A program made the translations under genes and the position numbers. A DNA stretch of 64,000 nt from Neofusicoccum parvum (Eukaryota > Ascomycota > Dothideomycetes > Botryosphaeriales > Botryosphaeriaceae): positions 1,426,001 to 1,490,000 of the forward strand of contig CP087220.1 of assembly GCA_020912385.1 (NCBI GenBank). The letters run 5' to 3'. The notes below the pieces were generated by a model that was not told the origin of the DNA, did no database searches, and was given only the letters and a program-made list of their open reading frames with translations. Positions 20,047-40,142 of this stretch are shown piece after piece (the first letter of the stretch is position 1; each line of letters opens with the position of its first letter).

Positions 20047-22096
20047 TTATCTCGGGTCCAAAAGCGGGACCACCAAATGACTGCTGTGTTCCCCGCCCAT
20101 GTGAATAACATGCCGACCTTTGTTCTCCACCGGGATTTGCATGTTGGGGAAATCCATCATCCCCATCGGATGGCCAGAAACCTTGATGACGAGGCTCTCT
20201 CCCTGCTCAAATGTGATGCCAGCCGGCCAAATTGGGATGTTAAGTTTGACAACTGATCCTCGCTGCACTGGGGTTGCACGATCATGGCGATACTGTGGCC
20301 AGACCCCAGAGAGCGATGTGGCGCCGGAAGGAAGTCGCCCTTCGCTGTGAGAAGCACGGAGTGACCCTGGAGCTCCGAGATACTTGTAGAAACAGCTGTT
20401 TGGGATATCGGCGTTTGATTCAACGGGCGGGACCAAGTCTTGAGCAGGCACGTTCATGTTCTGCGGAAAATTTCCCTCTATGTCCGCTTTCCGGAGCTGG
20501 ACGAAAACGTCGATCTCCTCGCTCTCCTCGCAAGAGACATAGAGGGTAACGTGAGAAAACCCTGCCAGCCAAGCAGGCTTGGTGAAATGGTACTTGAATA
20601 CCAGCTCTTCGGGGTCATTGTCCGAAAATTTGGGAGTGATCGAGGAATCGTAGGACTCCTGATATGAGGTACTCGGCGGGGAAATTGAAAGCTTCCCGGC
20701 TGGGTGGAGGTAGAATTTCTCAACTTTGCCCTCAGGAATCGGGTAGTCATCGAATGGAATATTCTCGATAGATCCCTACTACTGTCAGCTAGCTTGCACA
20801 CCCAAAGTGGAGCTGTCGAAACTACGTTATTGAAGCCCAAAAGCGAGACTCGAACGCGTGAGGTTGACTCCCATCCGTTGTCAACGTCCCTGCAGTAACG
20901 ATCCAGGAACTTGTGCAGGTCATTTGTCGAGAATTCGGAGTATAGGTCAGACCTAAGAGAAGTCAGGTAAGGGTATCATCAGACAGCACTTGGAGAATTG
21001 CGTACCACTCCTGCTTTGCATGAATTCGAAGCCTTCAGAAGGATCAGCTATCAGCGTTTTAGAGGACTGGTGGGTAGTGAACGCACCATTTTTTCTCAGT
21101 TCCAATGTCTTTGTACGCTCTGATTGAGCCGCTTGTGTGGAGATTTGTGGAGTAACTGGCGAGGACGTATGACGGCACGTTGATGTTGGAGAGCTCGACC
21201 ACTTTGTCTTGCCAGTATTCGTTGAATAATGGGTATTTCTCCAGCATCTGGGTGATGGACTCAACCCCCGTTGAACCATACTGTGTCGATTCCAGAATCT
21301 TCCAGAATTGTTTGTAAGGATACGGAACCCCACCGCGGCATAGTGTGTCGCGATAGAAGTCTGTGGCGCCTTCCCATGGCGCGATGGCTACGAGATGAGG
21401 CGGTCGTGCTGCCGCAATGAAGAACTGGGACATGGCTAGCCAGGAGTTTCCAGCCATGGCAACTTTCCCCGTACACCATGGCTGCTTCGCGATGAACTCG
21501 ATTGCATCATAGCCATCTTCGCCGTCTTGTTTTCCAAGCCACCTAGGCCACCGTGAGCTCTCTCGGCTCCATCAAAGCTGAGGCACAAACACTTACGGGA
21601 GGACTCCTTCCGAGTCCCAAGAACCGCGAAGGTCGAAATTAACAATGGCGTACCCCCGAGCCGTCCATTCGGCAGGATCAAGTCCTTCGAACTTCTCAAA
21701 TCCACTCAGTCTCTCTTGAGCAACGCCGAATCGGCCCGGGAGCATGTGCAGACCGTGAGGACCTTGCAGTGTGTTAGCGTTCGCCCAATAATTTTGATCA
21801 TCCAACTTGCCGTTTCCTCCCTTTCCGTAGGGGCTCCACATGATGATTGCCGGGCTCTTGCTCGCTTCTGCAGGCCGGAACACATCGCAGTACAGCTTCA
21901 CCCCATCTCGCATGGGCACACCGATATCTTTCTCGAAAATTGTGTCTGCCTTGAACGCAGCATGGTTGCTGCTTTGCCGGTAACCCTTTTTGAGCTCTTT
22001 CACAGCGTGGCCAAACCCAACATAAGGTGCCGAATCTGTCCCGGGCTTCGTGACTGAAGCCACGGGGACATCGAAATTGTTGATCTTCAAAGACAT
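20047..22096 (-). CDS. CocE/NonD-family (S15-like) hydrolase, copy A
   Basis: Five exons on the minus strand, 22096-21597, 21542-21087, 21032-21006 (27-nt micro-exon), 20952-20826 and 20775-20047, give 612 residues. Conserved features are VPMRDGVKLYCDVFRP, the nucleophile motif AMAGNSW, IAPWEGATDFYRD, KWLRIHAKQEW (created only by the micro-exon), and a C-terminal jelly-roll domain ending with IWPAGITFEQGE and SGHPMGM. The family covers cocaine esterase, X-Pro dipeptidyl-peptidase and fungal acyl hydrolases. Start 22096 (ATGTCTTTG) is preferred because a TTTATA box (22181-22186, read on minus) lies ~90 bp upstream; a non-ATG frame extends to 22174. Divergent from the SnoaL-like gene with a two-copy CGG motif between them. 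Paralogue of the gene at 30351. Confidence 0.87.
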
Positions 22097-22259: not shown

Positions 22260-22283
22260 CGTGGAGCCGAACTGTGGAGCCGA
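22260..22283 (-). promoter_or_regulatory. Cluster motif TCGGCTCCACA, tandem pair (CGG-N10-CGG)
   Basis: Minus-strand reading gives TCGGCTCCACA at 22273-22283 and TCGGCTCCACG at 22260-22270, spaced 13 bp so that CGG-N10-CGG results. It lies between hydrolase A (177 bp from its start) and the SnoaL-like gene (170 bp). Likely site for a Zn2Cys6 regulator (inference). Confidence 0.75.
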
Positions 22284-22452
22284 GCTTAGCTTCACCACTA
22301 CCACCACTCCCGTTCTTACCTTCACGCGGAAATTCGCCGCTCACAGCGGAAGGATATGGACCCCAAGGATATAGATCCCATACTTAAAGACTATACCAAT
22401 ACTAGTATTTGAGAAAGAATATTGTCTCAGTGTTCAAACAATTCGTACCAAA

Positions 22453-22976
22453 ATGCCGTCTGCCGAGCAAGTCGCTGCCATTTTCAAACCATTCGCGGAT
22501 GGGAATATGGGAACTTTCTTCGACTCTATCGATGATGACGTACTCTGGACGGTCAAAGGTATGCAAGCCGCCAAGTGTGGGGATAGCCGTACCAATCTTT
22601 CTACAGGCACGTTTTGCCCGATAGCCAACACCTACCATTCGAAGAAGGCGTTCCAGGATGGGACCAAGCCGCTGACCTCAACCTGGGCAACTCCTTTGAA
22701 GCTGGTGGTCCGAAACATCATCTCTGATGGCCAGAACCAGGCGGCCATTGAGCTCGAGGCAGTGGATACTGTGTGTAAGAATGGGCTGAAATTTACCAAT
22801 TTCTACACATGGATCTGCACGTTTGGAGAGAACGGGAAGATCGTCAAGATCAATGCCTACATGGATACGTAAGTAATCTATTGCAAGACACTTGTCATGA
22901 AAGCTTCCGCTAGTCATGATGCTGATTACTGCTTAGCGAGCTTGTGTCAAAGGCGATTGCTACAAACCCCGCGTAG
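22453..22976 (+). CDS. SnoaL-like (NTF2-fold) protein
   Basis: Three exons, 22453-22558, 22607-22868 and 22937-22976, give 135 residues. The length and pattern fit the SnoaL-like/NTF2 superfamily: helical N-terminus PSAEQVAAIFKPFADGNMGTFFDSIDDDVLWTV, the VKGTFCPIANTYHSKKAF junction, alternating strands in LVVRNIISDGQNQAAIELEAV, and FYTWICTFGENGKIVKINAYMDTELV at the end. The first intron (48 bp) is in frame without a stop; the last is inferred from GTAAGT...GCTTAG and gives the expected ELVSKAIATNP tail. Such proteins act as small cyclases, isomerases or binding folds in fungal and bacterial metabolite pathways. Divergent from hydrolase A and sharing its motif-bearing promoter. Confidence 0.82.
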
Positions 22977-23181
22977 TATCAGTGTAGTTTGCCTCGTGAA
23001 AACAAATACATCGCTTTCGCGAACGTCTCAAAAACTTCCAGCAACAATGTGGTGTGAAATACTTTTGAAGTATCTTGTACACAATCATGGGCTAGTTTAT
23101 CCATCATGCAGTAGTATTCATTTTGAAATTTACTAGAACGCTACGGTAGGCTTATTTCCATATTTGGACATGGCATTATAC

Positions 23182-25696
23182 CTAGAACTGCTGCCCGCTT
23201 TCCACCAAGCCTAAGCGGTGGAAGACTTTCTTGTAAAGGTGGGAAGTGGGCCACGTCTTGAGTGAAGTGCAGAGCCTCTCCGCCTCGGAAAGAAGCCTTT
23301 TCCGGCCGTTTGGAGTCTTCAGTATACCGATCCCATGCAGCTTCGGTTGGGCAATCCCGCACTGAGCCCAGAAATCTCGTGCGGCCACCGGGTCGTCCTC
23401 GTCATCGATATGTATCGTGTCGCTCGAGCCGCTCTCCATGCGATCCAGCTTCGAGTAGAGCCAGAGCACGGCAACCGCGTGCAAGAGCGCCGCTGGAGGC
23501 GCAAACGCGGTGGAATGGTACTTCCGAACGACGCCGTATATCTGGCCGGCGTGCCACACGGCATGGCAGACCTTGTCGGGTGCATTCAGCAGCCACTGTG
23601 AGCCGACGTTGTCTCTACTCAGGACATCGGCACTGCCGGTGATAGTCTTGAAGATGAGGTCCAGAATATCGCTTAAAGGGCAGGCTTGCGCGACACTGCC
23701 CCAGTGGTAAGCCACGAGCACTTCGACGGACTGTCGCCTGGACGTCTCGGGTGCGTCTATGTCTCCTGGAGACTCATACAAGGGAATAAAGTCCAGCAGC
23801 GAACCGAGTGGAGCTGACGGGGTGTCTAAACCGTCGTCTTCCGGGTTGTAAGGCGGGCTTAGGTTGCATATCGCCGATAACTTCCCAAGGTGCCCAATTT
23901 TGGACCAAAGGGTGTAGTCGTTTGGACTAGACTCTATCTGACGGATTGTAACAGGCAAAGACGGATCTGCAGGATCAATTAGATTGAAGCGATACTAAAT
24001 GGCTGGAGGAAAGGATGCACCTACACGATCCGTGAAACGTATCAGACCAGGCGAGTGCTGATGGGGCAGCCCACATGTCTTCACTGCTTGGAAGCTCGAT
24101 TCGAAGCTCGTCTTTTGAGATAATTGCAGTGATATTAGCGGTAAGCCGGAACAGATTGTCGAGGACCTTTGTATCTCAGATCAGTAAATTAGCAGCACCG
24201 TGGGATTGTCTGAAATTACCGCTATCGCATGACTTGTCCTTCGATTCTCTTCTTCTTTAATCCACGTGCTCCATCTTTTCTCCAGAGGCAGTTCCTGTGC
24301 CACGGACTGGTCAAGGGATCCCCTGGGCTGGAATAGTCCTGTTCTCCGTCCGAGCGTAGGAAGGACACTTTGGCTAATTTCGGCCACTTCCATCATCCTT
24401 CGGTCACCGGAATACAAAGAAGAAAGATTGGAGAGGACAACAGACTGGATCATACTAATTTGTCGGGAGAATCGATTGTCGGATTCGCACTGCACTTCCC
24501 CAGTCAGTTTGCGCTGGCCGCCATGTGTAAAAGAAGGTCTTACGAGGTACATGCTCAGTCGCCGGAGTAGCTCGGTCATTGCAAGTGCACATTCGTCGGC
24601 TCCTTGCATTTTCGAATAGCGGGATCCGATGGTTGCTACAGCGAATACGAGCAAGGGCCGTGGGCTGCCATTGCAGAACGATGGCTGGTGCAGTATGGGA
24701 AATATGGGATGGAAGTGATCAAAATAAAGCTGAACAAACACGTTCATTACAGCAGCAGGAGGGATCATGAGACGTTGGAAAGCGGGGAACGGGGTGGAAT
24801 GTTGCAGCTTCTCGGCAATGCTGGATATAACGGCGAAATGGGAGTCGTCTATCTGCTGCACGTGGGCTGCATCTTCTTGGTCGATGTCATCACGGGAGAA
24901 GTTGGAGAAGTCGGGAAAGGACAGGCCTGCGCACGCAGTTTGCGGCAAGTAACGGCGGTGCTCCAGATCCACGCCCGATGGCTTCGGCGATAAGCAGCGC
25001 TCGTCATCGCTGATGATCAACGAGTCGGGAGAGAGCGGCATTCCGTTTACTAAGCCTGATTGGGCCACAAGATCATTGGCGGGAGCAGTCAGCTGCTGGA
25101 TGAAGGTAAGGTCTGCAGGCCAGCAGCTATCGGCGTCCATGATGTCGTCGAGCTCGAGTACATCCAGGCCGCCGAATAGATTCTCGGTTTCGTGGAAGTC
25201 GGGAAGCGGAGACTGTGAGCTGGTACCCAGATAGCTTGGAGTGGGCAACGCAGCGGATGGCGATGCGAGAGAGATCTGATGGGATCCACCAGCAGGTGTC
25301 TGGCGCCTTCGACGTGGCGGATATTCACACACTTGCTGCTGGCGAGTACAGCGCTGACACGAGGGCTGGCGGCCATCACAACGCAGCTTGGACCTGCTGC
25401 AGGAGCTGCACGCTTGAGAAACGCGCGCCGCACGCGTGTGTGACGGCCGTGGGCTGTGCAAGCTGGGATGGCGTGCTGCAGTGTGTCTGGTAAGCGCGTC
25501 CCTACGCGAGTCGGGTCAGCTGCCGGATTGGGTCGGGAGGATGCGGCTGGAGACTGTACACGCGGGCGAAGGAGTCGAGGCAGACATCGCATACAAAGTG
25601 CTGCCCGGGTGAGTGGATGCGGGCGTGTCGATGCAAGTTGCCTTCGCGCGCGAACGACGCACTGCACTCGGGACACTGGAAACGGCCCTCGGGCAT
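23182..25696 (-). CDS. C2H2 + Zn2Cys6 dual zinc-finger transcription factor
   Basis: Four exons on the minus strand, 25696-25560, 25501-24220, 24166-24025 and 23966-23182, give 781 residues. Two N-terminal C2H2 fingers (FQCPECSASFAREGNLHRHARIH, shown here as its C-x2-C-x12-H-x3-H pattern, and CDVCLDSF joined over the intron to ARVDALTRH) are followed by a Zn2Cys6 cluster, CSSCSRSKLRC then SCQRCTRQQQVC. The fungal-specific middle region includes FVQLYFDHFHPIFPILHQPSF. This architecture is a known fungal class of pathway regulators. The intron inside the second finger is decisive for the model. Its position in the middle of the cluster makes it the best candidate to bind the shared CGG motif, although its own promoter carries a different inverted repeat (25927-25967). 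Confidence 0.87.
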
Positions 25697-26277
25697 GATA
25701 CTGGCAGCGAGAAGCGATGTCGACGGCGGATTTCCGCAACCCGTTGTAGCTACATATATGCCATTGAAAATGCGGGGACAGGCCGAGGGCGCCAGGGGCA
25801 TCCCCACCACAACTATCTGCTTGTGGTTTAGGGCACCGTATAGGGCCCTCGAGGCGGAACGCCGGCCGCGCATACGTGTACCCGCTGTCCAAAGCGTCTT
25901 GACTACTGCACCTCCGTGTAGCAGTCTCGGCTTATTGCGGCTGGTCCGGCCGAATGCAATAAGCCGAACCGGCCCTACGCGCATTTAGGAGAACGGGTAG
26001 AAGTTTGGCCGGAACTTCGTAGGCCAAGAAGGGCTTCCCGTCTCACATTGGTATATCAATCTTTCTGTGTATAAGGTAAATGATGTTGGGTGTCCTTGCT
26101 CGGCCCTGGCCAAAAAGCCGAGACAGGCAGGTGCTCTACCAGCATCAATCGTTTTTGTGCCAATGGAATGCTAACGTGTCATCGTTTCACTCCACTCAGA
26201 CTCTTGCATTGCCGCTAGACCAGTACGCATGTTTCCACAAATCTGCGTATTTAAAACTGCTACCAAACATGTCTGTC
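25697..26277. promoter_or_regulatory. Promoter region of the zinc-finger regulator
   Basis: About 580 bp between the regulator's start and the 3' end of the ALDH-like gene. It holds the perfect inverted repeat at 25927-25967; no gene is visible. Confidence 0.55.
25927..25967. promoter_or_regulatory. Perfect 12-bp inverted repeat with CGG/CCG ends
   Basis: TCGGCTTATTGC (25927-25938) and GCAATAAGCCGA (25956-25967) are exact complements around a 17-bp centre that itself contains CCGGCC. It lies 231-271 bp before the regulator's start codon. Possible autoregulatory operator or, less likely, an RNA hairpin. Confidence 0.65.
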
Positions 26278-27873
26278 TCAGAGATATCGAGTCAAGCCAA
26301 ACACAACGCCGGAGGTCATGGTTAGAGCGGCGAGGAGGCTGACAACCAATCCTTGCTCAAAATACGATGTATACCCTCCTGTTGCCTGCCTGTATGTCTC
26401 CAAGGAGCGCTTTGGAATTCCAGATGCCAGGACGCTGACGGACTGCACTTCAGAGAAGTCGCTTGCGTCATACGGCACCTCCCAACTGCCCTGGTGTGTT
26501 CGAGGCGCCGTTGCCACTATCGAGCATTAGTATATTCGCAAAGATGTTCGTGGTGGGGCGTGTAAGACTTGCCTGCAGCCGTCGGGGGGATACTGTTGAC
26601 GAATGTATGTTGACTGGGGATAAAGTTGGCCAGGTAGCCTGCTTCCCTCTCACCCGCGAATATGTACGTTGCCTGCGGTTTTCTGCCACAGTTCCTACGG
26701 GAGTGTTACTAACAGCAGTAATTGTCTATGAGACCTACTCACAGTTTGTTTGCCAAGCTAATTGTGTTCTCCGTACTGGTCGTGGAAATCACGATGATTT
26801 CTTTCTCGGCCGCTTGGTGGCTCCTCTTTGAAGGAGAGCTGGACGATACGTCAAATTTGTCCTCGAAGAACAGAAAATGCCTCTCAATCTCAAAAGCTCA
26901 CCTGTCTGGCTTTAGGGTTAGTACGTGACCCTTGCGAGATGTGTTTGCTGCGTCTCGCTCATTTCCTAATGTCGGGAATATCTCCTGCAAACTCGTTTCC
27001 CGTAGGTGATCCTCCATGAATGGGCTCAGCGCTGCCATGAAGTCCTGCTTGATGAACTCGTCGACAAGCATTATTCTCGGAATGCGTGTATTTCCAGCTA
27101 TTGCTCCATATGCGATCCTCGATAGTTGTGCCGCCGCGGAGGCTATCCCCGTTGTGCTACGGTCGACCACAGCGGTAGACACTCCATCAGGCGGCTGGAG
27201 AATCCGTATCGATGGGTTCGCCTGCTGCAACTCTTTGAGGAACTCGGATTTGGAGGTAGAAGCCGGGACTGACACGACGTCAAAATGGAGGCTTGCCCAC
27301 TCGCTCGCCGTGCTCTTGTTGTCATTCACGACCAGGGCAATCGCCTCTCGGTCGAGACCATCTTGAAAACATCCAGAGATCTGAGATTTGGTCTTTGTAT
27401 CTGCGGCTGGCGCTAGAACCACTGCGGGACAACCGGCCGCGAGCGCTGCGGCAAGAGGGAGTATGCAGGACGACAGCGGCGCGGTCTCCGAGCCGATAAT
27501 CAGAGCGATGCCTAAAGGGCGCAGCAGGTTGACCGTCTTGCGGCCAACGGCCAACTGTTGCTCGGTTCGTAGTGTTGCAGTCACGTCTAGGCCGTTGTGG
27601 ATTTCTGCGACAGCGGCGAGGACGAAATCGAGCTCGATGGCTGCCAGGCTGCTGTTCCAAGATGCGCCTGCGTTGGTGGTGTCTTTCAGCATGAGCATCA
27701 GTGACATATCTCAAGCCTCACTCACCCGGTTTGGGGTCATTGGCGATCTTTTGCTGCTGCAGTTGCAGGTTGGCGTGGAGTGCAGCGAGTTGCTTCTTCC
27801 TCTCAATGACACCTTCAAGCCTACCCTCAACCCAACACGCTTGCAATGTCTTCCAAATACCCGATTCTGCCAT
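26278..27873 (-). CDS. Aldehyde-dehydrogenase-like protein lacking catalytic residues, membrane-anchored
   Basis: Five exons on the minus strand, 27873-27726, 27682-26902, 26838-26743, 26694-26573 and 26516-26278, give 461 residues. ALDH-fold landmarks are present: LLRPLGIALIIGSETAPLSS, ILPLAAALAAGCPAVVLAP, ISLANKLNCGRKPQATYIFA and YLANFIPSQHTFVNSIPP. The catalytic Glu (ELGG-type) and Cys (GQ.C-type) positions read instead as STTGIASAAAQ and AYGAIAGNTRIPRIMLVDEF, with no Cys, so this is probably a pseudoenzyme. The C-terminus has a hydrophobic helix (GLVVSLLAALTMTSGVVFGL), suggesting a tail anchor. The last intron uses a GC donor (GCAAGT at 26572). Divergent from the ring-cleavage dioxygenase with the cluster motif between them. 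Confidence 0.78.
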
Positions 27874-27994
27874 GGCCCTTGAGATCGAAGTCGTCGCTTA
27901 TGTCGGCTTCAGGTACCCGAGCAGCATTTTGTGTATGAGATGTTCGACAAAGGCCAAGGCGCGCTGTGGGAATCCGGGGCAGGGACAAGGCGGA

Positions 27995-28016
27995 TCGGCT
28001 CCACAGTGATTCTCGG
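27995..28016 (+). promoter_or_regulatory. Cluster motif TCGGCTCCACA in the ALDH-like/dioxygenase promoter
   Basis: Exact 11-mer at 27995-28005 with a second TCGG at 28013 (spacing 18). It is 122 bp from the ALDH-like start and 161 bp from the dioxygenase start. Confidence 0.75.
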
Positions 28017-28165
28017 CATCTCGGCCTACTCAAAGTGGAACCGGTCAACTCACAGAGAAGCCTCCATGCGGAGTCCTGCGATAAATGCAGATGAGTTGGT
28101 CTGGTGCTCGTTCCACAGGCAGCTTGATACCACTTGGTTAGGAGTGTATGAAGGATAGAGAGAAA

Positions 28166-29132
28166 ATGACTCGAGGTCCGTATTCCGCCAGCCTGCCCCG
28201 CTAAAACGCCGCCCCTAACACCATCACCGCCAGTAGGACCCACTCCAGTTTATATGTTCAGTCATGGATCGACCATGATGTTAGGAGAAGAATCTGCACC
28301 CGCCGAGTCGTGGAAAGCGGCGGGTGATGAGGCGCTGAAGCGGGGCGTCAAGAGGCTTGTAATAATGGTAATCGTTGCCAACCATGCGATTCCCCCAGTC
28401 TACAGCTCACGATTTGTTCAGGGAGCGCACTGGGAAAGTCGTGGAGATGGCATTGAAGTCAGCATGAATCCGAATCCTCAAAAGCTTCCCGTCGGATCCG
28501 TACGAGACGACAGGTACATGCCCTACAAGCTGAAGCCAGACCTCGAAGGGGGCCAGAAGGTCATCGACCTGCTGCGAGGTGCCGGGTTCAAGGCCACGGC
28601 GAACACCAAGTTCGACTGGATCCACGATACCTTCCTCATCGTCATTCGCATGTTCCCCAACTGCGTGCCTCCTCCCGCCGTCATCGTGTCCGCCAATTCG
28701 CGCTACGACCCGCACTTCCACTGCAGAATGGGCGCCGCCCTACGGCCACTCCGGTACGACGATACGCTCATCATTGGGAGCGGTGGCACGGTGCACAACC
28801 TCTACCGCAACCACTGGACGCACATGCTTCGCTTTTGCGACAACTTTGCCCAGCCGGTGCCTCCGGACCCGTGGGCTCTGGAATTCCGCCAGGCACTTCA
28901 GGATGCGGTCCTCAATCACACCGGCCCCGAACTGAGAAGAGCAGTAACGAGACTTATGAAGCACCCTCGCTACAGGGAAGCTCACGGTACGGATGACCAC
29001 TTCATGGCCAATTTGTTTGTGGCTGGAGCGGCCGGAGCGCCGGAGGATGTGGGCCCAAATAAGCTGCTGGCTGAATGCTGGGAGCTGGTCAATATGTGCA
29101 ACACCCAGTACCAGCTGGGAGAGTGGCAGTGA
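28166..29132 (+). CDS. Extradiol ring-cleavage dioxygenase (LigB/DODA type)
   Basis: Three exons, 28166-28175, 28234-28367 and 28422-29132, give 284 residues. Class III extradiol landmarks are MFSHGSTMMLGEE, KRLVIMGAHWE, DWIHDTFLIVIRMFP, SANSRYDPHFHCRMG and IIGSGGTVHNLYRN. The SHG, AHWE and VHN histidines fit the metal and base positions of LigB-family enzymes that open catechol-type rings. The second intron (54 bp) is in frame without a stop; removing it restores LVIMGAHWE. A 10-nt first exon is inferred: ATGACTCGAG, a weak GTCCGT donor, then a CTAAC branch and CAG acceptor, giving MTRVGPTPVYMFSHG. If that is wrong, translation may start at ATG 28254. It is the only ring-opening enzyme in the cluster. 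Confidence 0.85.
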
Positions 29133-29515
29133 AATCGGGGCGCAAAGTAAATGATACAGTGTTCTATAGAATCTCTGATGGTTTGGTTTTTGAAGTTAGC
29201 TGAATCAGAGTAGTTATTGTTGGGCCACTGGCATCCAGGTGACCCTTTTGATCAGAAATCCTCATGTTACGCAAGATGGCCTCACGTTATGAGAAAAGAA
29301 CTCTTGTAAGGGACTACTAATAGAGCTATTAAGTGGAGTATGAAATAGCCCATTCAGAGAGTTCGGATTGCACTGGTGGTTCTGGTTGGATACACGGTGA
29401 ATCGGTCTCGCATATCAGTGTAATGTTCAGAGCACCGATAGAATTTTATAGTAAAATTGCGGGAATTTGCCAACAGCAGTATATATTTCCAGACAGACAG
29501 CTCCGATAGGCCATC
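29133..29515. other. Intergenic region between convergent cluster genes
   Basis: About 380 bp, AT-rich, downstream of both neighbours. Nothing recognisable. Confidence 0.6.
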
Positions 29516-30010
29516 CTACCACTGCCCACCAATCGGATGATACTCCCAGTCAATCGCCTTTCCCATTGTATTTCTCCACAGTAAAGACCAATTCTGCGCG
29601 CGATTGCCCGCGCAAATTAGTGGAATTAAACAGACCGAAGTTCCAAACATCGTACTTACCGAGATCATACTGCAGCCGGAAATCATGAAAACTCCAACAA
29701 TCGCGAAAACCGGGTTTTGCCTCCTCTGTTCCCGATCCAGATTCCTGTTGACTGGTCGATAAGCAGGTACAGATCGGTAACGTGTCTGCCAATTTTCTGG
29801 GTTTGAAACGGGATACGGGACTCGTGGGTGCGGGGCGAGCGTGGGGTCGAATTGAGCAGGCTGGGGCTCGACGGTCACTCCCAATGGTGTTTGCGGAGTA
29901 GCCGTCGAGTTTGGAGTAGTAGAGTGTATCTCGTACTCTGCAAGGATAGATCGAAGCTCACGCTGATCTTCCGGCGCGACAGTTGCCGTTGTTGTCGTGG
30001 TGGAGGCCAT
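29516..30010 (-). CDS. Small membrane protein of unknown function in the cluster
   Basis: Two exons on the minus strand, 30010-29660 and 29593-29516, give 142 residues. The 66-bp intron (GTAAGT...CGCGCAG) is a multiple of three with no stop, so an unspliced frame also looks complete. Spliced, the C-terminal part reads PVFAIVGVFMISGCSMIS joined to NWSLLWRNTMGKAIDWEYHP, one hydrophobic helix followed by a conserved-looking aromatic tail. The N-terminal ~80 residues are Thr/Pro-rich and polar (ASTTTTTATVAPEDQ). I do not recognise the family. It is divergent from hydrolase B and shares its motif-bearing promoter, so it is probably co-regulated. Confidence 0.65.
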   Translation of the reverse strand: MASTTTTTATVAPEDQRELRSILAEYEIHSTTPNSTATPQTPLGVTVEPQPAQFDPTLAPHPRVPYPVSNPENWQTRYRSVPAYRPVNRNLDREQRRQNPVFAIVGVFMISGCSMISVSTMFGTSVCLIPLICAGNRAQNWSLLWRNTMGKAIDWEYHPIGGQW

Positions 30011-30164
30011 ATCGACTCTGTAAAGCAGGAGAAATTCGCTGCAACTCTTTGACGCAGCCGGACGGAGACGATCTTGATGAACTTAGCTCTATGCACACCT
30101 TCGGGATTGTCGGCAGGGTCGAGCGGTTGTTTAGGCTGGCGACGGATGTGAGGCTGAAGTTCCC

Positions 30165-30193
30165 TGTGGAGCCGAGCTCAGCTGTGGAGCCGG
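30165..30193 (-). promoter_or_regulatory. Cluster motif TCGGCTCCACA, pair with 18-bp spacing
   Basis: Read on minus: exact TCGGCTCCACA at 30165-30175 and CCGGCTCCACA at 30183-30193. It lies 155 bp from the small membrane protein start and ~160-175 bp from the hydrolase B start. Confidence 0.75.
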
Positions 30194-30350
30194 CCCGGGA
30201 CAAGCTCCTACCACGCCAAGCGTCATCTTTGAGAAAGAATACCAACTATGGCATGGTTCGGGAAACAGCGGAAAGATATGAGATAGATGCTACTGCATTA
30301 GCTTCAATGTTCTCCGCTTGATCTTCCACCACAACAATTGTCAGACCATC

Positions 30351-32290
30351 ATGGCGGCCCAAGCAGCGAACAAGTACATCCACAAGGACGAGGAATCATT
30401 TCCGTACACGTTCATCCGAGATGTCGACATTCCTCTCCAGACATACGAGAAGGGCACCATCCGATGCAACGTCTATCTCCCGAAGGAATCTGCGGCGGGG
30501 AAAGTGTCGAAATTTCCCGTGATTGCTACCTACGGTCCATGTCAGTCTGACCGAATGCTCTCGTAAAACTTCCACTGACTGGGCTACTCACAGATGGCAA
30601 GGACGTTCCGTACGAGCAATTCCACAAGAAATCCTGGGATGAGCTTAACCCGGAGATGAAGTCGGCCCATGGGTCATGGGAAACCCCCGATCCTGGATAC
30701 TGGACCAGACACGGCTACGCGGTAGTCCGAGCAGACGAGAGAGGCTCTGGCCAAAGTCCCGGCAAGCTTGACACAATGTCTAGAGGCACTAGCGAAGCTT
30801 TCTTTGACGTCGTCGAGTGGTCGGCCTCTCAGCCGTGGTCCAATGGCAAAGTTGGAATCCTCGGCATCAGCTACTACGCCGGAACGCAATGGCGTGTTGC
30901 TGCCCGGCAGCCAAAAGGATTGGCGGCGATCATTCCGTGGGAGGGTATGAGCGATTACTACAGGGACCGCGTCCGGCACGGTGGCATTCTCTCCGACAAA
31001 TTTATTTGTTAGTATAACCCTCACATCTTGTAAGTCTCCTTGCTAACGCAGCAATCATAGCATTTTGGTGGAAGAACGGAGTGATAAAGAACCAGTATGG
31101 GCGCCCCGGAAGGAAGGAGATGGGCTGGGGCTACGATACCTTGGAAGGGAATCTTTCTGAAGAGGAACTTGCTCGTAACCGACAGGATCAAACCATCGAC
31201 ACCGCCAAATACAAGTTCAGAGACGAAGACTACTACAACGAAAAAGAGTTCAACCTTAGCGACATCAAGGTTCCCGTGCTCAGTGTGGGTAATTGGGTAA
31301 GCCCAGTCATGGATCCTCATACTTTTAAGTTACTGATCCAGTCTCTAGGGAGGAATCTTGCTGCACCTTCGCGGGAATGTCATTGGATGGATGGGTGCAG
31401 GGTCCGAGCACAAATTCCTCCGCTTCATAGTCGGGAGACATGACTTGCCCTTCTACTACGCCCACAATGCCGAGCTCCAGAAGTCTTTCCTGGACGCTTT
31501 CCTCAAAGGAGACGACCACGCAGGCTGGACCGTTGGAAAGCAGCCCAAGGTGCAACTTTGTCTTAGGAAGGGCGATACCGGAGTCAACGATGCGGCGCGC
31601 GAACGGCATCTCCCCGAGCGTGCGGAATCCGAATGGCCAATTCCCGACACAAAGTACGAGAAATTCTTCTTAACCGCTGATGGACTTCTTGAGAACTCTC
31701 CTACTACCGCCGAAGGTCGCATCAGCTACGATGCTATGGAAGGATCTCCTGTCCAGTTCAAATTCGTGGCCGACAAAACCACCGAGATCACCGGACATCC
31801 CGTAGCTCACGTCAGAGTCTCTTGCACCCAGACTCCAGGATCTGACCACGCGCCCTCTGATATAGACGTATTCGTGACTATTCGTCATTTAAACGCTTCC
31901 GGGTCAGAGATATTCTACACTGGAACCATGGGTGATCCGGTCCCGGTTGTCAAAGGCTGGTTGCGCGCATCCTTACGCAAGACAGACCCTTCCCATCCGA
32001 GCCACCGGGAATACTTGCCGTACCGTAACTACCACAGTTCCGATGTTCAGGCTATCAATGAAGGCGTTGAATATGATCTGGACATTGAGATTTGGCCAAC
32101 AAACGTTGTGTTAGAAAAAGGAGACACGCTGGTGTTCGAGGTAGCGGGACACGACACGCAGGGCTGTGGGACGTTCTTGCACAGTCACCCAGAAGATCGG
32201 AAAGAGGAAGTGTTCGCAGGAATCAACACGATCACGGTCGGGGGCAGCAACAGCTGGCTCACCTTGCCAATCATTCCCAGCAGGGATTAG
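30351..32290 (+). CDS. CocE/NonD-family (S15-like) hydrolase, copy B
   Basis: Four exons, 30351-30540, 30594-31007, 31061-31296 and 31349-32290, give 593 residues. Landmarks are PLQTYEKGTIRCNVYLP, VIATYGPYGKDVPYE (formed across intron 1), GYAVVRADERGSGQSPGKLD, the nucleophile motif ILGISYYAG, IPWEGMSDYYRD, VGNWGGILLHLRG, and the C-terminal jelly-roll part IEIWPTNVVLEKGDTL followed by GHDT. All introns have consensus ends and CTAAC-like branch sites. It shares its architecture with copy A at 20047 but the two are well diverged, so they may take different esters or amides. ATG 30351 (ATCATGGCG) is chosen; the frame extends upstream only from a non-ATG codon. Confidence 0.9.
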
Positions 32291-32631
32291 AACTGTTAGC
32301 ATTTCTCATGTCAGATAGACTCACATCCCTCAAAGAGAATCCCAATCAAGCTGGATTTCTTCTCCGCTATTTTGAACTGCCAAAAGAAATACACACGAAC
32401 ATGCACTAATTTTCATCAAAAATGATAATTCAATACTGTCATCTTTACCAATCGGATGCTTAGTATGAAAACTATGGTTCACCTTCACCACTCGTGGTAA
32501 ATTTACTTCTGGTAGCCTGAGGTTTTGTAAAATTAATCCTTCTTCTAACTCTATCAACATTTTTCAGGGCTGACATAGTATATCCATGGTCACTCTGAGA
32601 TATCAATTGATCCGTTTCAGCTAGTTCTATC
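32291..32631. other. Intergenic region between convergent genes
   Basis: 340 bp, AT-rich, between the 3' ends of hydrolase B and the P450. Nothing recognisable. Confidence 0.6.
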
Positions 32632-34301
32632 TCACCGCTTCTTCAAAACAACGTCGATTCCGCTTTGCCGAACAAACCAAGAGTTCTTCAGGTGCCACTT
32701 CTGCGCCTGATCCGCAAGACTGATGTCAAAGCTCAACAGCAGAGACGGAAGGACTTTGTATATCTCCAGTAAAGCAATGTTCTTCCCAATGCATGTGCGA
32801 GACCCATAGCCAAATGTAAGGTCTGCACGTTTCATGGCTCCAATCCGGGCCGTGAAGTGGTCAGCGTCTTCATTCTTGCTCTGCAACCATCTTTCAGGAA
32901 TGAAATCATCAGGATGATCACCGAAGACCGAGGGATCGCGATGGATAACCCAGGCGTTCACTCCCACGACGGTTCCAGGCTGGATCCTGCCCGCTCCGTC
33001 AGGGAGCTCAAGCCCACTTGCAGGCACTACCCTCTCCATGTTCATGCCCACGGCAGGATGTAGCCGCATAGCCTCTTTGACACAGGCATCCATGTACGGC
33101 AACGATTGAGACTCTTTCCAGCTGACCGGAAAACTCTCAAACTTGGTTGACTTAAGTTCCTCCACCAACTTGTGGTGGGCCTGGGGATGCTTGAGCAGGT
33201 AGTACAGTATGGATCGTAGAGAAATGGCAGTGGTGTCAGACCCCGCGGCGATGTTTGACATCAAGTATTGCAATATCTCTGGAACCTGGAACTGCCCAGA
33301 TTCGTTTGACTTTGCCTTGAGAAACTTGTCGAGAAAGTCTGGTGCTCGCTGCTCGGTCGGGTCATTGTTGTTGAGGCGCTGCAGAACGCGACCCACGGCG
33401 AACTTGAGGATTGGGCTATCGGGCTGTCTTGTCATACTGGCGAAGTGCTTGTAGAGCCTGTCGATGAAAGGCAGTTGGCCAACCTAAGATGCATATGTCA
33501 ATACATTACACAGCCTCTCGTTTTTTGTGAAAACTTACGGGTGCCACCCATTCGAGGACGTCGTCCAGCTGCTTGATCATGTTGTCCACGTCCTTTGCTG
33601 AATCCAGGAATCCAAGCTGGCTCGACCAGGTTATGTCTGCGATGACATCGAACGCATCTACGATAGCAGGTCAGAAGATGACAAGTGATAACCAGATTTG
33701 GTAGCTTACACCACTGGACCCATTTCGATATGGGGCACACCTTCCCCACGGACTCCCCTTTGGCGAACTCCTCTTCAAGTCTTCCCAGAAACTTTTGAAT
33801 GGTCCGATCAACAATTGATTCGTACTGTGTTAGAGTACTCATGGAGTACGCAGCGCTGACAGGTCGTTTCAAAGCGGCGTGCGCCCTCTCCGGAACCACG
33901 GTGAAAAGTGTCGAGACCGGCTGTCCATTTACCAGCTGTTCAAAGACTGAGTAGAATTCGCTCTTACTCAGATCAGCGATGATCTTCTTCACGCGTCGGA
34001 AGACATTTACCTTTGGGAAGTTTGCCCGAAGCCCGTAGATCTTCTCGATCATTTTGGGGTCCGCAATGCTGACACTGTTTGGCCCCAGACGGACCAAAGG
34101 GCCGTTCTCTTTGTGGAGACGCATGATTGTTTCATGATGGGCGCCACCGAGAACATCATGGAACCGCCAAAGGTTGGTGAATTTGGCCCAGAAAGGTCCA
34201 GGAATACCGAGCAAGTCGCGTCGTCGGGCGCTGCGAACGAAGGGGACGACGAGGGACACAAAGGCCACAAAAATAAACAAGGGAGCCGCACTGAGTATCA
34301 T
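32632..34301 (-). CDS. Cytochrome P450 monooxygenase (pisatin-demethylase/benzoate-hydroxylase-like)
   Basis: Three exons on the minus strand, 34301-33710, 33657-33539 and 33483-32632, give 520 residues. An N-terminal anchor (MILSAAPLFIFVAFVSLVVPFV) and IPGPFWAKFTNLWR lead in. The I-helix has NIAAGSDTTAIS, the K-helix KEAMRLHP (ExxR), then ERVVPASG, FIPERWL and the heme-binding FGYGSRTCIGKN with the axial Cys. The overall pattern resembles fungal pisatin demethylase and benzoate 4-hydroxylase relatives (remembered families). A likely role is ring or side-chain hydroxylation, or demethylation, of the cluster's substrate. Divergent from FAD monooxygenase 1 across a promoter with several CGG repeats. 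Confidence 0.92.
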
Positions 34302-34413
34302 TGTTGCAATTGTAGCGTGTCTAACGGTGAGTATGTTGATTGCACTCTTTCCACAATCACTTAAGTGCTGCGAGTGCTGCGAACGGTGAAGGCTTGGATT
34401 CCGGCCTACCCGT

Positions 34414-34456
34414 TCGGCTCCACAGCTCGGGCCACAACACTCGGCCCGTGTGCGGC
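34414..34456 (+). promoter_or_regulatory. Cluster motif TCGGCTCCACA with CGG array
   Basis: Exact motif at 34414-34424, followed by TCGG at 34427 and 34441 and CGGCTCTGC from 34453, so CGG recurs every 11-14 bp. It lies 113 bp from the P450 start and ~185 bp from the FAD monooxygenase 1 start. A TATAAG box at 34522-34527 serves the plus-strand gene. Confidence 0.75.
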
Positions 34457-34608
34457 TCTGCAGCCTCATGTGTAGGTGTGCTCGGTTTCTCCCTATTCGA
34501 AATGTTCCGTGAGGCCTACTTATAAGATGATTTAATGTTTTCCTAAGAAAGCTTAAGTTTTTGAGGTGAAAGCACCATAAACACCAAGAGTCTGATTCAA
34601 CGTTAGCA

Positions 34609-36172
34609 ATGCCTCTCAAAATCATCATTGTCGGAGGAGGTATAGCCGGCCTGACCGTGGCTGCTGCACTGCGGAAGAATGGCCATCAAATTAAGGTAAT
34701 GGGTTCCAGTTCTCCGAAACTGCACGTAATGCTGACTCGAAGGTATTCAGATTTTCGAGCAGTCGTCATTCTCAAACGAGGTTGGCGCTGCCGCAAATCT
34801 CCCGCCCAACCTTGAATGTGTCTTGCGCCTGATCGAAGCGGATGAGAAGATTATGGACCCTGTTGAAGCCCTTGCCTTGCGCGTTAGTTCTTGCGACGGC
34901 ACTGGGCCAACCATAGCCATGGTATCGACCCACACTCAAAGTTTATTTCCGCGTTCGGCGCGAGGTGCTGATTATCCGAAAGGATCCGGGTCTGCAAGAG
35001 GCAGAGACTGGAGTTAAAGTACGCTGGATACTCTCGCATAGAGCAGACATTCATGCATGCTTGCGCGATGCGGCAACCAGGCCGATTCCGGGAACTTCGA
35101 CGCCAGAGTTCCACCTGTCTTCGGCCGTCACAGCCGTCGATGCGTCTACGGGGACAGTTACCTTCAAAGACGGCACGACAGAATCGGCAGACCTTGTCAT
35201 TGGCGCAGATGGTATTCATGTCGGTCGCCTCCTACTCCCGAAGTCTATCCTACCCCCTTGCTCACCGTGTTCTGCAGTCCGTATCTGCTCGAGAAGTAAG
35301 GGGAGAGGCCGCTATCGTCAGCACTCAGCAAAACTGCTTCCGATTTCTTGTCCCAACGGAAAAAGTCTTCAACAACCCCAGGACTCGCTCTTTCCTCACC
35401 CGAGCTGGTGTGAACACGCTTGACGCCATTTTTGATCATGAAAATGGTCTAAAACTCATGATTTACCCCTGCCGCAGTGGTTCTCTTCTGAACTTACTCG
35501 TAATACATCCGGACAAGCACACAAACAGTGACCTTGCAGGCGGGTGGAACAGTCCCGGTATGTTTTATGACCTTAAAGTAGTTTGCACAGGTTGAGCTGA
35601 TCCAATTGAAAGGAAATATGGATGAGCTGAACAACATGATGGGATCGTACTACCCTCAGCTCCGAGAAGTCTGCGCGATGGCCGAAGATCTCAAGCTCTG
35701 GAGCTTCTGCACCAAGGACCCAGCGCCGACGTACCACAAAGACAAGCTCGTGCTGATTGGAGATGCCGCACACCACATGCTATCCCGTAAGCATTCCTGT
35801 CCTCCATTGACGCACCACGCACAACCCCAGTACTGAACTACTTTGCCTCGACCTACAGACTACGGCCAGGGAGCTGCTATGGGAATGGAAGATGCCGCCG
35901 CGCTCGGCGTGCTGCTCGACGAAACGACCGGGCCTGAGAACATGGCCTCGCGTCTCCGTGTCTGGAACGAGATGCGCTATCCTCGTGCGACTGCTGTGTG
36001 CATCTTCGGTCGGAAGGATGCCACCAAGATTGATTCGATGTTGCCGCTCGCGAAGAAGTTCGTGCCGGATGTTGAAAAGCCGAAGGACCTGACGAAGTGG
36101 CTGTGGGACTATGATGTTGTTGCTGATGCCAAAGCTCGGCTTGCGGAGATTCGTGGGCATGGCAAGTTGTAG
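34609..36172 (+). CDS. FAD-dependent monooxygenase 1 (salicylate-hydroxylase-like)
   Basis: Six exons, 34609-34695, 34751-34921, 34983-35219, 35278-35557, 35613-35786 and 35859-36172, give 420 residues. IIIVGGGIAGLTVA is the FAD GxGxxG motif; IFEQSSFSNEVGAAANLPPN follows after intron 1, then WILSHRADIHACL, VIGADGIHS (DG motif) and LVLIGDAAHHML (GD motif) with YGQGAAMGMEDAAALG. This is the class A flavin hydroxylase order of salicylate hydroxylase relatives, which hydroxylate or decarboxylatively hydroxylate phenolic acids with NAD(P)H and O2. Intron 2 (34922-34982) was chosen over two other splices because it alone keeps the length between MDPVEA and LSHR typical of the family. Intron 3 has a weak GTCGGT donor. 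Confidence 0.85.
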
Positions 36173-36613
36173 TCTTGAAACTGTTCAGGACGATGCTGAC
36201 GCGCGTGGAGGACTGCTGTAGATTGAACTAGAAGATCTTTCTGTACATAACTACTTGTGTTCATAGTCGCTTACCGAATGCAACTGTACAAATGATGACA
36301 CTATGATGTGAGATGCGAGTATGAGTTCGAGAAGTATTTGCACAGATGCACGCTATCATGGCGCGGTTCTCATAGAAGCCCATCGTACAGACCATATATT
36401 CCACCTCTTCAAATCATTTGGGTGTCAGAAATTTGGCTGCCCTTATCAATGCGGGTCTCGAATTAGAGAGTGACGCCGAGGACTGCGGAAGCTGAGCCGC
36501 TCACGTGCGGAATTATTGATTGCTGAGCATGAAAAGCACCCTCGGTATTGGCTGTTCCTGCGGTATGCATTCCGCGATCATCGACGGGCCGTACCGTTAG
36601 GCTCAACGGAAGA

Positions 36614-36637
36614 TGTGGAGACGAACTGTGGGGATTC
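36614..36637 (-). promoter_or_regulatory. Cluster motif variant pair upstream of cupin 1
   Basis: TGTGGAGACGA at 36614-36624 (one mismatch from the complement of the motif) and TGTGGGG starting 13 bp later. The stretch GTGGAGACGAACTGTGG is nearly identical to GTGGAGCCGAACTGTGG at 22261. Confidence 0.6.
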
Positions 36638-36783
36638 TGGGGAAAGTAATGCGGGGACAGTGCATGAGAAAAAATCTCCTTGTATCCGAGCTCTTCAGAG
36701 CCAATGGCTTTGCATGAGCTAGCTAATTCCTTCTCGAATTGGTCATGCTAAACTGAAAGTAGCCGAGGACCTTGTTGCGAAAT

Positions 36784-36794
36784 TGTGGAGCCGA
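36784..36794 (-). promoter_or_regulatory. Cluster motif TCGGCTCCACA upstream of cupin 1
   Basis: Exact complement TGTGGAGCCGA, 160 bp before the cupin 1 start codon. Confidence 0.75.
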
Positions 36795-36953
36795 GCGAAG
36801 TGGTAATGCGGGCGTTGAATTCACGTGAGAGAAGTGAGTGCTATGTTTCTGCACAAAATATTTAAGATAGTGTATGGTAAATGGAGGTTATTACTGTAAA
36901 CTCTCATTCAGTTCCAAATATCCCGACCAGAACCCCACAGAAATCACCACAAA

Positions 36954-37515
36954 ATGGCTCCAAGCTTGAGGCCGCAACGCCGCATTGTCACAACGCACAA
37001 CGGTACTAAGTCGGCCGTCATGATCGACGATTCCTTGCAGCCGATTCCTGGGTTTGCTTCGGATGCCCGCGTGTTGTGGAGAAGCCATCAGTATCCGGCT
37101 TTGGTAGCTGAAGATACAGATGAAGCCCGAGAAGATTCTGGGATGTACGCGCGGGGGTCTTTGATCCGAGTGGTCGATTTTCCGCCCCACTCTCAAGGCC
37201 ACAACCATCGGACGAGCTCTCTGGACTACGGGATAGTCATGGAAGGGACATTGGAGATGCTGCTCGATGATGGGTCTAAGACTATTGTCAGTGCCGGCGA
37301 CATCGTTATTCAACGCGCGGTAAGGCCCAGTACATTCACCAGAAAGCCATGCCTACTCACTCTGTCAGACAATGCATCAGTGGAACAACCCCACCGATAA
37401 ACCAGTCCGAATGATCTTTATTCTGTTGCCGGCAAGAGCACCGGTAATCGGTGGAGTCAAGTACGACGATGCAAATATTCCAGAGAGTTTACGCAACAAT
37501 TATGGGCTTGCTTAG
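36954..37515 (+). CDS. Cupin-domain protein 1
   Basis: Two exons, 36954-37319 and 37369-37515, give 170 residues. A single RmlC-type cupin barrel: motif 1 region FPPHSQGHNHRTSSLDYGIVMEG (HxH present, the usual Glu position occupied by Asp), LEMLLDDGSKTIVSAGDIVIQRA, and motif 2 TMHQWNN (H...N). The intron (GTAAGG...CTGTCAG) is required for the H in motif 2. Similar small cupins occur in fungal aromatic-metabolism and metabolite clusters as isomerases, decarboxylases or dioxygenases; the reaction here is unknown. Paralogue of the gene at 40645, with the intron at the same codon (after QRA). Confidence 0.87.
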
Positions 37516-38278
37516 TGCTGATAAGATGTGAATGGGTCCCGGTTAGCATCATTCTTATATTTCAATTTTCGTTTAGTATGGGATGCATATGAATTTTCCA
37601 ACGCTCCACAAACGCCTTTGTGAAGGATCAAAGCTGCGAGAAGTATCTTGTTTCGGTAGGTGAATCAAGTCCTTGGACCAGCATGCACCATTTAACTTTG
37701 AGGGCTTAGATGCGATCCCAAGACTTGCCTCGGAAAGAACGTTGCTCTTATGGAAATGTCGAAGGTTGTGCCTCAATTAATACGGAATTTAGACATGCAT
37801 CCCGCAAGCGAGCACGGCACATCCCTTGAGCTTACAGGATAGATCCCTGCTGTTCCCTTTCTTTAACGTGCGTGCGTCTGGTGAGCTGCTGTTCACCAGA
37901 GGGATGAGCGACAACGGGTCGATGGCCATCCGTCTCCTTATGGCACATACTCATGGTCTACAAAGAAGAAAGCACAAGGGACAGAGAGGATAGCCGTCTC
38001 ACCAAATAGGAAAATGCAGTTCTTCTCACATGCTCCCAGTTCCCCCCATGTCAGATCAAAGAGCATATGTGGAGCACGTCGGGACCGTTGGGATGGTAAG
38101 GTTTTCCGGACGAAAACTTTCGGCCAAGGCTCCAGAGCCAGCCCGTGCATGAAGTCGGCTCCTCAATTGTCCAAATATAAGTCCCATTTCTTAAGAGTAC
38201 GCACATTCATAAAGTCGAGATTATACGTCGTTCAATAGGAAACATTTCTCTGCATCAAAAACACCAGAAGTTTGCAAA
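37516..38278. promoter_or_regulatory. Promoter region of FAD monooxygenase 2
   Basis: About 760 bp with no supported gene. The proximal part carries a motif variant at 38155 and a TATAAG box at 38176-38181, ~100 bp before the start codon. Confidence 0.55.
38155..38165 (+). promoter_or_regulatory. Cluster motif variant TCGGCTCCTCA
   Basis: One mismatch from the consensus, 114 bp before the FAD monooxygenase 2 start and ~10 bp upstream of its TATA-like box. Confidence 0.6.
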
Positions 38279-40142
38279 ATGAGTGCTCCAACTAAAACTG
38301 CGTGGCAGCGCGACGAGACGCTGCCCATCCCCGGAGCTCCACGAACCGAATTCGACTTCCCCGACACCTTCGACCACTCCCAAATCCCGCTCGAGAAGGA
38401 AGAATGGCCGGTGATCGTGATCGGCTCGAGCATGGTCGGCATGAGCCTGCAGCTCATGCTCGGCTTCCACGGGCAAGTCCTCCCCACCACCACCACCCTC
38501 CACCATCCCTCTGACCAGCCCGCCCACCACGCACAGAGTCAAATCCCTCTCCTTCGACCGCCACCCGTCCACCGCAACCCGCACCCGCGCCGCCCTCTTC
38601 CTCCTCCGCAGCATCGAGATCTTCCGGCAGCTCTCGCTCGAACCCGCGCTCCGCGCCGCCTCGGCCACCAACTTCGACCTCGACAGCGGGATGCTGCTGA
38701 CGACCGCGCTGGCCGGCGGCACGGTGCTCGGCGCCGTTCAGGAGAGCGACGCCGCGCGCACCGCGCACGCGACGCCGTGCGCGCGCCTGTGGCTGACGCA
38801 GGACATGTACGAGCCGTGGGTGCGGGAGCGCGCGGGCGCGCTGGGCGCGCAGCAGCGCTTCGGCCAGCGCGTGGTCTGGTATGCGGAGGACGCGGACGGC
38901 GTGCTGGTCGTCGTGCAGGACGGCGCGACGCGACGCCGCAGGAAGTACCGCGCCGCGTACCTCGTGGCTTGCGATGGCGGCCGCAGCCCCACGCGCAGGC
39001 GCGAGGGTGTCGAGTGGCGCGGCCCTGGCGTGCTGGGGAGTAATATTTCGATCTACTTCCGTGCGGATTTGACCGCGTTGCTGGGGTCGCGCGCTAAGTA
39101 TGGCGTCACGTATGTTGTGAATCCGCGCATTCGGGCTATCTGGCGGCTGGGCGATTCGGGGAAGGCGGGGTTCTTGGTGGTGATGGGCGTGGAGGGGCGG
39201 GATGGGTTTGAGCCGGACTCGGTGAGCGAGAGGGAGGCGAGGGAGATGTTTGCGCTGGCGCTGGGGAGGAGCGTGGAGGGGTTGGATATGGAGATCGAGG
39301 AGATTTCGTACTACACGAGCGCGGCGTACAATTCGGACTACTTTGCGAGTAAACAGGGGAGGGGGAGGGTGATTCTCGCGGGCGATGCGGCGCATGTCAT
39401 GCCGCCTACTGGAGGCATGGGTGGGAACACAGGTATTCAGGTGAGTTATTCACGCGCCTCATCCTAGACATTTTACTGAAACTCTGTGCAGGATGCATAC
39501 AATCTCGCGTGGAAGCTGGCGCTGGTTGTGAATGGCAAGGCTTCCCATGGGCTTCTGGCCAGCTACAACTCGGAGCGCCAGCCGGTGGCCGGCTTTACCG
39601 TGCAGCAGGCGTACAGCCGTTTCGTCAATCGCGTGCTTAAAGACCCAAAGCTTGGGCACATGAAGGAGCTCCCCGACGACACCGTGGAGCTGGGTTACCG
39701 ATATCCTGTCGGGGCGTCCGTTGCGGAACCTGACACCGACAGCAGCGCCCTTTGGGAAGACCCGTACTCGCCCACGGCAACTGCAGGCTCCCGACTGCCG
39801 CATGTTTCCCTTCTATCTCTGAGCCTGGAGGACATCTCGAGCTTGGATTTGGTGAAAAAACACTTCGTTGTTTTGGCTGCGGAAATGGATTCGCCGTGGT
39901 TCAGTGCCGCGGCAGAGCAGGATATTCCAGTGCAGCATTTCGCTGTCTGCAGTCAGTCGAAGGAGGCGTGCGACCCAGAAAACCGGTTTAGACAGCTCTG
40001 TAGGCTGAAGGACGGCCAGGCACTGCTTGTGAGGCCGGATGGGTACATTGGTTGGAGAGCTCCGGCGGTGGAGAAAGGGCATGAAGAACGACTGAAGGAA
40101 ATTCTGGAGCGGATCCTTTGGCCGGAGGAGCAGTGCACATGA
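38279..40142 (+). CDS. FAD-dependent monooxygenase 2 (phenol hydroxylase / PheA-TfdB-like)
   Basis: Three exons, 38279-38472, 38537-39440 and 39492-40142, give 582 residues. The FAD motif reads WPVIVIGSSMVGMSLQLML, with Ser at the second conserved Gly. Later come LFLLRSIEIFRQL, AYLVACDGGRSPTR (DG motif), ILAGDAAHVMPPTGGMGGNTGIQ and DAYNLAWKLA. A C-terminal thioredoxin-like region ends with GQALLVRPDGYIGWRA, as in phenol 2-monooxygenase relatives. Intron 1 needs a GC donor (GCAAGT at 38473), because only that splice joins GFHG to VKSLSFDRHP in frame. The middle exon is strikingly GC-rich compared with the first and last. Likely hydroxylates a phenolic intermediate. Confidence 0.88.

Follow-up and report, generated by a model that had tools for sequence, protein, structure and literature searches.

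In a 64,000-nucleotide stretch of the Neofusicoccum parvum genome (contig CP087220.1, positions 1,426,001 to 1,490,000; hereafter the window), an 11-bp motif, TCGGCTCCACA, recurs in the promoters of a gene cluster at 20–40 kb that contains oxidative enzymes, hydrolases and a putative transcription regulator. This raises the question of what the motif is and which protein reads it. The evidence presented below leads us to predict that it is an operator, specifically a composite site for the cluster's own regulator, encoded at 23182–25696, a reading to which we assign a probability of roughly three in four.

All nine copies of the motif that had been listed in a preliminary description of the window were recovered, five exact and four with a single mismatch (Table 1), and a scan of the whole window listed no further copies at up to one mismatch. 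When two mismatches were allowed, 32 sites were counted against 23.7 expected, a number reached in 6 of 100 shuffles; as this wider set is not enriched in the window, the signal lies in the near-exact copies and the motif is sharp. Pieces of TCGGCTCCACA headed an unbiased k-mer ranking of the 20–40 kb region at every k from 9 to 12, and the commonest 11-mer never exceeded three copies in any of 200 first-order Markov simulations.

The genome (44 Mb in 18 contigs) was scanned with the motif and, as a control, with the reversed pattern. Exact copies numbered 31 genome-wide against 22 for the control, and copies with up to one mismatch numbered 946 against 724. With 26 exact copies outside the cluster, the motif occurs there near the control frequency rather than being spread through unrelated promoters. 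Positions 22260–38165, by contrast, hold five exact copies where 0.0094 were expected (P = 6e-13) and nine copies with up to one mismatch where 0.34 were expected (P = 1e-10), both P values being uncorrected for the choice of the motif afterwards; the genome density behind the expectation of 0.0094 was computed with the five cluster copies taken out. Within these 16 kb the earlier assertion of a frequency far beyond chance is thus borne out, and no other 16-kb stretch included more than two of the 31 exact places. The search of the 44-Mb genome turned up two pairs of the 9-bp core CGGCTCCAC in the same direction and no more than 25 bp apart, and both lie in the cluster; the reversed control of this pattern also had two genome matches, whose places were not listed. 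These data bear on the idea that chance clustering was picked afterwards from many k-mers. The motif was chosen after looking, and a coding repeat in the adjoining 0–20 kb also holds one 11-mer five times, so that the copy count alone is not the argument; the simulations, the rarity in the genome, the promoter position described below and the tandem pairs nevertheless concur, and make chance barely credible.

As for the exact sites outside the cluster, 10 of the 25 examined lie under an open frame of at least 200 codons, and inspection by eye of the open reading frames (ORFs) near eight sites revealed no common kind of gene. One pair of exact sites, 6.2 kb apart on contig C12, was considered as a second regulon and set aside, five ORFs there giving a single weak hydrolase match below the cut-off. 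One outside exact site (L017) has a cytochrome P450-like ORF nearby.

To place the copies relative to genes, models were made for 13 genes between 18210 and 41195, leaving 22% of the DNA intergenic; genes of this genome can be read through only when introns are allowed for. In these models all nine copies are intergenic, as had been proposed. For the copy at 34414 this depends on the model, since a 395-codon open frame covers it: the P450 frame continues without a stop upstream of the ATG at 34301, where the start was placed because a membrane-anchor-like N-terminus comes after that ATG. The copies, which occur in both orientations, occupy six of the eight promoter-bearing gaps: those between CocE1 and the SnoaL-like gene, between the aldehyde dehydrogenase (ALDH)-like and LigB-like genes, between the small protein and CocE2, and between the P450 and flavin adenine dinucleotide (FAD) monooxygenase 1, and those before cupin 1 and FAD monooxygenase 2. 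The description of the motif as marking almost every promoter was slightly generous, as no copy stands in the gap before the regulator or in that before cupin 2; nor did the 64-kb scan list a copy with up to one mismatch near the flavoprotein at 18210. No gap between converging genes contains a copy, neither the three larger ones nor the fourth, of 27 bp, and these gaps act as a negative control within the locus for the position of the motif. Distances to the start codons, previously given as 113–185 bp, are 113–184 bp in the models, with exceptions of 248 bp for the LigB-like gene, a value that applies if its start is 28254, and 330 bp for the copy at 36614. The motif is, then, both shared by the promoters of the cluster and concentrated in it relative to the genome, two of the marks of a pathway-specific regulon.

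The internal layout of the motif is fixed as well. On the other strand it reads TGTGGAGCCGA, that is, a T, the hexamer GTGGAG, the triplet CCG and an A, with the hexamer directly abutting the triplet. CCG (CGG on the other strand) is the classic triplet of Zn2Cys6 proteins. GTGGAG occurs 14 times in the intergenic DNA of the cluster and is followed directly by CCG in seven of these (P = 9e-10); no other arrangement (spacings of 0 to 10 bp, the opposite order, or CGG) was seen more than twice in the same DNA. Columns 1 and 3–6 of the hexamer and the CG of the triplet are invariant in all nine copies, and in two of the four mismatched copies the sole change is at an outermost base. No second CGG or CCG half site stands at a fixed distance in three or more of the nine copies. 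Conservation ends sharply at the edges of the motif, beyond which the flanks differ except for a C at +12, kept in eight of the nine copies (P = 8e-5, uncorrected for the columns looked at). The true operator may include this base and read TGTGGAGCCGANC. These features largely exclude a repeated element or duplicated promoter in place of a binding site: the two closely spaced pairs would suit such an origin, which the differing flanks and the presence of both orientations render very improbable.

The same layout could be read as serving two proteins per site, with CreA on SYGGRG and a Zn2Cys6 activator on CGG, thereby joining carbon repression and induction. GTGGAG does fit the SYGGRG consensus of the carbon-catabolite repressor CreA, and a degradation cluster would be a likely CreA target. 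However, among the 33 SYGGRG sites in the intergenic DNA of the cluster, CCG is next only to those reading GTGGAG (7 of 14, versus 0 of 19 for the other variants), and the copy at 38155, with GAGGAG, breaks the consensus. We consider joint use by CreA and a second protein quite unlikely.

A single protein that could read both halves is encoded within the cluster. The regulator gene has five exons in our model and specifies two C2H2 fingers, followed by a Zn2Cys6 cluster (PF00172, 30.2 bits against a cut-off of 21) and a fungal_trans or middle homology region (PF04082, 52.2 bits against a cut-off of 23). Finger 1 matches Pfam zf-C2H2 (26.6 bits against a cut-off of 25.2), and both fingers align to zinc fingers in the PDB, the best match being Aart (PDB 2i13). 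With adjacent fingers near the N-terminus, a Zn2Cys6 cluster and a fungal_trans region, the predicted protein is a dual-specificity (C2H2 plus Zn2Cys6) factor of the fungal type.

The recognition helices are REGNLHR in finger 1 and RVDALTR in finger 2, which at the main contact positions resemble published modules for GAG and GTG, respectively. Because tandem zinc fingers lie antiparallel on DNA, the predicted finger site is 5'-GTG-GAG-3', the hexamer half of the motif; the probability of finding a given hexamer within a given 11-mer on either strand is ~12 in 4096. The gene at 23182–25696 had already been named as the candidate regulator, a proposal that this agreement strengthens. Among the published modules, RSDALTR is tabulated for GTG (PMC2634973, PMC3607563, PMC3139592) and RKSNLIR for GAG (PMC3139592), while RSDNLVR is the choice of a design tool for GAG and RSGNLTR belongs to a protein identified by experiment for GAGGAGGAT (both PMC5260015). 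A genome search with the DNA-binding part of the regulator gave 43 matches, itself included, of which the best 20 were taken as loci. A finger pattern, blind to fingers split by introns, had 15 matches in these loci, two of which were the regulator's own finger 1, and arginine, asparagine and arginine at positions -1, 3 and 6 were found in no finger of another gene among these 20 loci.

The alternative that must be taken most seriously is that the operator belongs to some other regulator whose gene lies elsewhere, such as a plain Zn2Cys6 factor recognising TCGG and its flank, in which case the match to the local fingers would be coincidental. Many fungal Zn2Cys6 cluster regulators read TCGG-containing sites, and the local regulator has no copy in its own promoter. 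Against this, GTGGAG is as fixed as CCG across the nine copies and is predicted by the local fingers, and the local regulator sits inside the cluster. On balance a regulator from elsewhere seems unlikely.

For the cluster's own regulator, we propose that finger 2 (RVDALTR) would bind GTG and finger 1 (REGNLHR) GAG, with the Zn2Cys6 cluster of the same protein on the adjacent CCG. This gapless arrangement, in which the fingers would replace the second CGG half site on which Zn2Cys6 dimers ordinarily depend, is likely, though held with less assurance than the assignment to the regulator itself. As the halves abut without a gap and no second CGG stands at a fixed distance, one molecule per site would probably be enough. 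The copy at 38155 departs from GTG at the middle base, which finger 2 would face with the alanine at helix position 3. Each divergent promoter has its site, single or as a tandem pair, roughly in the middle, so that both of its genes could be controlled by one binding event. Through these sites the regulator would turn on, rather than repress, ten genes for the oxidative breakdown of an aromatic compound, presumably when the substrate is present. The proposed reactions are hydroxylation by P450 and FAD enzymes, extradiol ring cleavage and CocE-type hydrolysis. The proposal depends on sequence statistics and on the zinc finger recognition code, which is good though not infallible.

Besides the two reversed tandem pairs mentioned above, several points weigh against this proposal. 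Finger 2 is complete only with a 58-bp intron that has a weak donor. The join 25559/25502 is the sole one of seven in-frame joins enumerated that completes the finger; because of the donor, we treat the intron as inferred. The finger code is not one-to-one, as other helices are also tabulated for GTG, and a protein identified for GTGGAGGAA carried RSGHLTR (PMC5260015). The regulator's own promoter, as noted, has no operator. As finger 1 would adjoin CCG and the Zn2Cys6 cluster follows finger 2, the 19-residue linker would have to turn back over ~6 bp, which is possible. The Lasiodiplodia theobromae record LTHEOB_11427, discussed below, contains no DNA-binding part. Finally, in the melanin regulator Cmr1p, deletion of the zinc cluster abolished melanin and deletion of the fingers reduced it (PMC5415576, PMC12426039), effects which, by analogy, fit a composite site; both domains are involved, and synergetic cooperation between them is described as not shown in the survey that reports this (PMC5415576).

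Table 1 Operator copies and modelled genes of the cluster, with positions in the window.
Feature	Position	Strand	Remarks
CocE1	20047..22096	-	Peptidase_S15 + PepX_C hydrolase
Operator copy, one mismatch	22260..22270	-	Mismatch at outermost base; tandem pair with 22273
Operator copy, exact	22273..22283	-	Common to CocE1 and SnoaL-like genes
SnoaL-like protein	22453..22976	+	Weak Pfam match (E 0.017), below cut-off
Regulator gene	23182..25696	-	Five exons in model; two C2H2 fingers, Zn2Cys6, fungal_trans
Inferred 58-bp intron	25502..25559	-	Splits regulator finger 2; weak donor GTACAG
ALDH-like protein without catalytic Cys	26280..27873	-	3' exons approximate
Operator copy, exact	27995..28005	+	Common to ALDH-like and LigB-like genes
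LigB/4,5-DOPA-dioxygenase-like extradiol ring-cleavage dioxygenase	28254..29132	+	Start may lie upstream
Small protein (membrane protein of the preliminary description)	29516..30010	-	No Pfam match above cut-off
Operator copy, exact	30165..30175	-	Tandem with 30183; common to small protein and CocE2
Operator copy, one mismatch	30183..30193	-	Mismatch at outermost base
CocE2, CocE/NonD family hydrolase	30351..32290	+	Splice borders approximate
Cytochrome P450	32636..34301	-	
Operator copy, exact	34414..34424	+	Common to P450 and FAD monooxygenase 1
FAD monooxygenase 1	34609..36172	+	From N-terminal sequence; exon borders not settled
Weak distal operator copy, one mismatch	36614..36624	-	CCG to ACG; 330 bp from cupin 1
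Operator copy, exact	36784..36794	-	160 bp before cupin 1
Cupin 1	36955..37515	+	Cupin_2, 25.6 bits against cut-off of 27.2
Operator copy, one mismatch	38155..38165	+	Middle base of GTG; 113 bp before FAD monooxygenase 2
FAD monooxygenase 2 with Rng_hyd_C	38279..40142	+	

The gene products named in the preliminary description mostly keep their labels: the LigB-like dioxygenase, two CocE/PepX hydrolases, the P450, an FAD monooxygenase with Rng_hyd_C and the ALDH-like protein were recovered, the SnoaL and cupin assignments fall below the cut-off, and the small protein supposed to lie in the membrane matched no Pfam family above it. FAD monooxygenase 1 was called from its N-terminal sequence because the two pieces scanned had no relevant Pfam match. 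CocE2 shares 99% identity with a Neofusicoccum parvum record, and NCBIfam and the PDB gave class-level names only for the enzymes of the cluster. No synthase typical of secondary metabolism was present among the cluster genes scanned, and degradation of an aromatic compound is the function that the predicted enzymes favour. In an alignment, the ALDH-like protein has GNTR where the catalytic GQTC stands; its gene keeps the operator, and the protein possibly has a non-catalytic role. By eye, the L. theobromae homologue seems to be without the Cys too. Two cupin paralogues are present, at 36955–37515 and 40646–41195 (+), the operator standing before the first only. Between cupin 1 and FAD monooxygenase 2, at 37700–37840 (+), lies a relic of a P450 C-terminus (the heme-binding part) with stops on either side. 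A HET-domain protein (14434–16671, +) lies to the left of the cluster. To the right, beyond the range of the operator, are an acyltransferase of the transferase family (TRI-like; 48915–50528, +) and an AMP-binding enzyme (58602–59717, -). None of these three has an operator nearby.

Related arrangements were seen in other fungi. In L. theobromae a single gene model (LTHEOB_11427; P0001) fuses the ALDH-like gene to the C-terminal part of the regulator, and a LigB homologue lies on a contig equally long (306,877) as that of LTHEOB_11427. The absence of the DNA-binding part from this model is probably a gene-model error, and an annotation error of this kind would hide dual factors. In Coniothyrium glycines, Penicillium riverlandense and Cylindrodendrum hubeiense the locus tags of the LigB and CocE homologues are neighbours, while Xylaria arbuscula, Boeremia exigua and Elsinoe fawcettii have the two on equally long contigs. 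Contigs of different size were recorded for the two homologues in Colletotrichum siamense and Penicillium canescens, which is compatible with linkage because the records stand for clusters of sequences. The two genes thus appear to be linked in several other ascomycetes.

The locus brings together a regulator, a predicted finger specificity and sharply defined sites, which reduces the question of recognition to a simple binding experiment, and a catabolic cluster gains a candidate regulator and regulon. If the proposal is true, the finger code could predict the operators of other C2H2–Zn2Cys6 factors from sequence alone. Factors carrying DNA-binding domains of two kinds are ubiquitous in fungi and make up 1–4% of their factors according to a 2017 survey, which describes how the C2H2 plus Zn cluster combination recognises DNA as obscure in its details for want of direct experiments (PMC5415576). 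In the open-access literature searched, we found no published operator for Cmr1 or for another dual C2H2–Zn2Cys6 factor, and, among the titles listed, none suggesting an operator paper with TCGGCTCC, or with GTGGAGCC together with Zn2Cys6; searches there on co-regulated Neofusicoccum parvum clusters, the Cmr1 binding motif and the Aart helices gave nothing usable.

Among known systems, the regulator most resembles in its domains the dihydroxynaphthalene (DHN)-melanin regulators Cmr1p and Pig1p (Tsuji et al. 2000, via PMC5415576 and PMC12426039), which likewise combine C2H2 fingers with one Zn2Cys6 cluster, and it shares the fungal middle homology region with VdCmr1 (PMC10617112). Cmr1p and Pig1p serve melanin genes, whereas the cluster described here looks catabolic; no melanin gene was found among the 30 window ORFs scanned, a subset of the ORFs, and no protein named Cmr1 was among the four matches of a search with the regulator protein. 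Designed arrays such as Aart, and the GTG and GAG modules, have closely similar helices, which here are part of a natural protein that joins an array of two fingers to a Zn2Cys6 cluster. In relation to the CreA/Mig1 consensus SYGGRG, GTGGAG is one of eight variants, and here it alone is paired with CCG. Operators specific to a cluster are known in kind, while the predicted composite layout appears undescribed in the open-access literature searched. AflR and GliZ are cluster-encoded Zn2Cys6 regulators with a shared TCGG-containing motif before most genes of their clusters, and the present locus has the same organisation, with a cluster-encoded regulator and a TCGG-containing motif before most genes. 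Their operators, however, consist of two CGG half sites, whereas here one CGG is joined without a gap to a predicted C2H2 hexamer.

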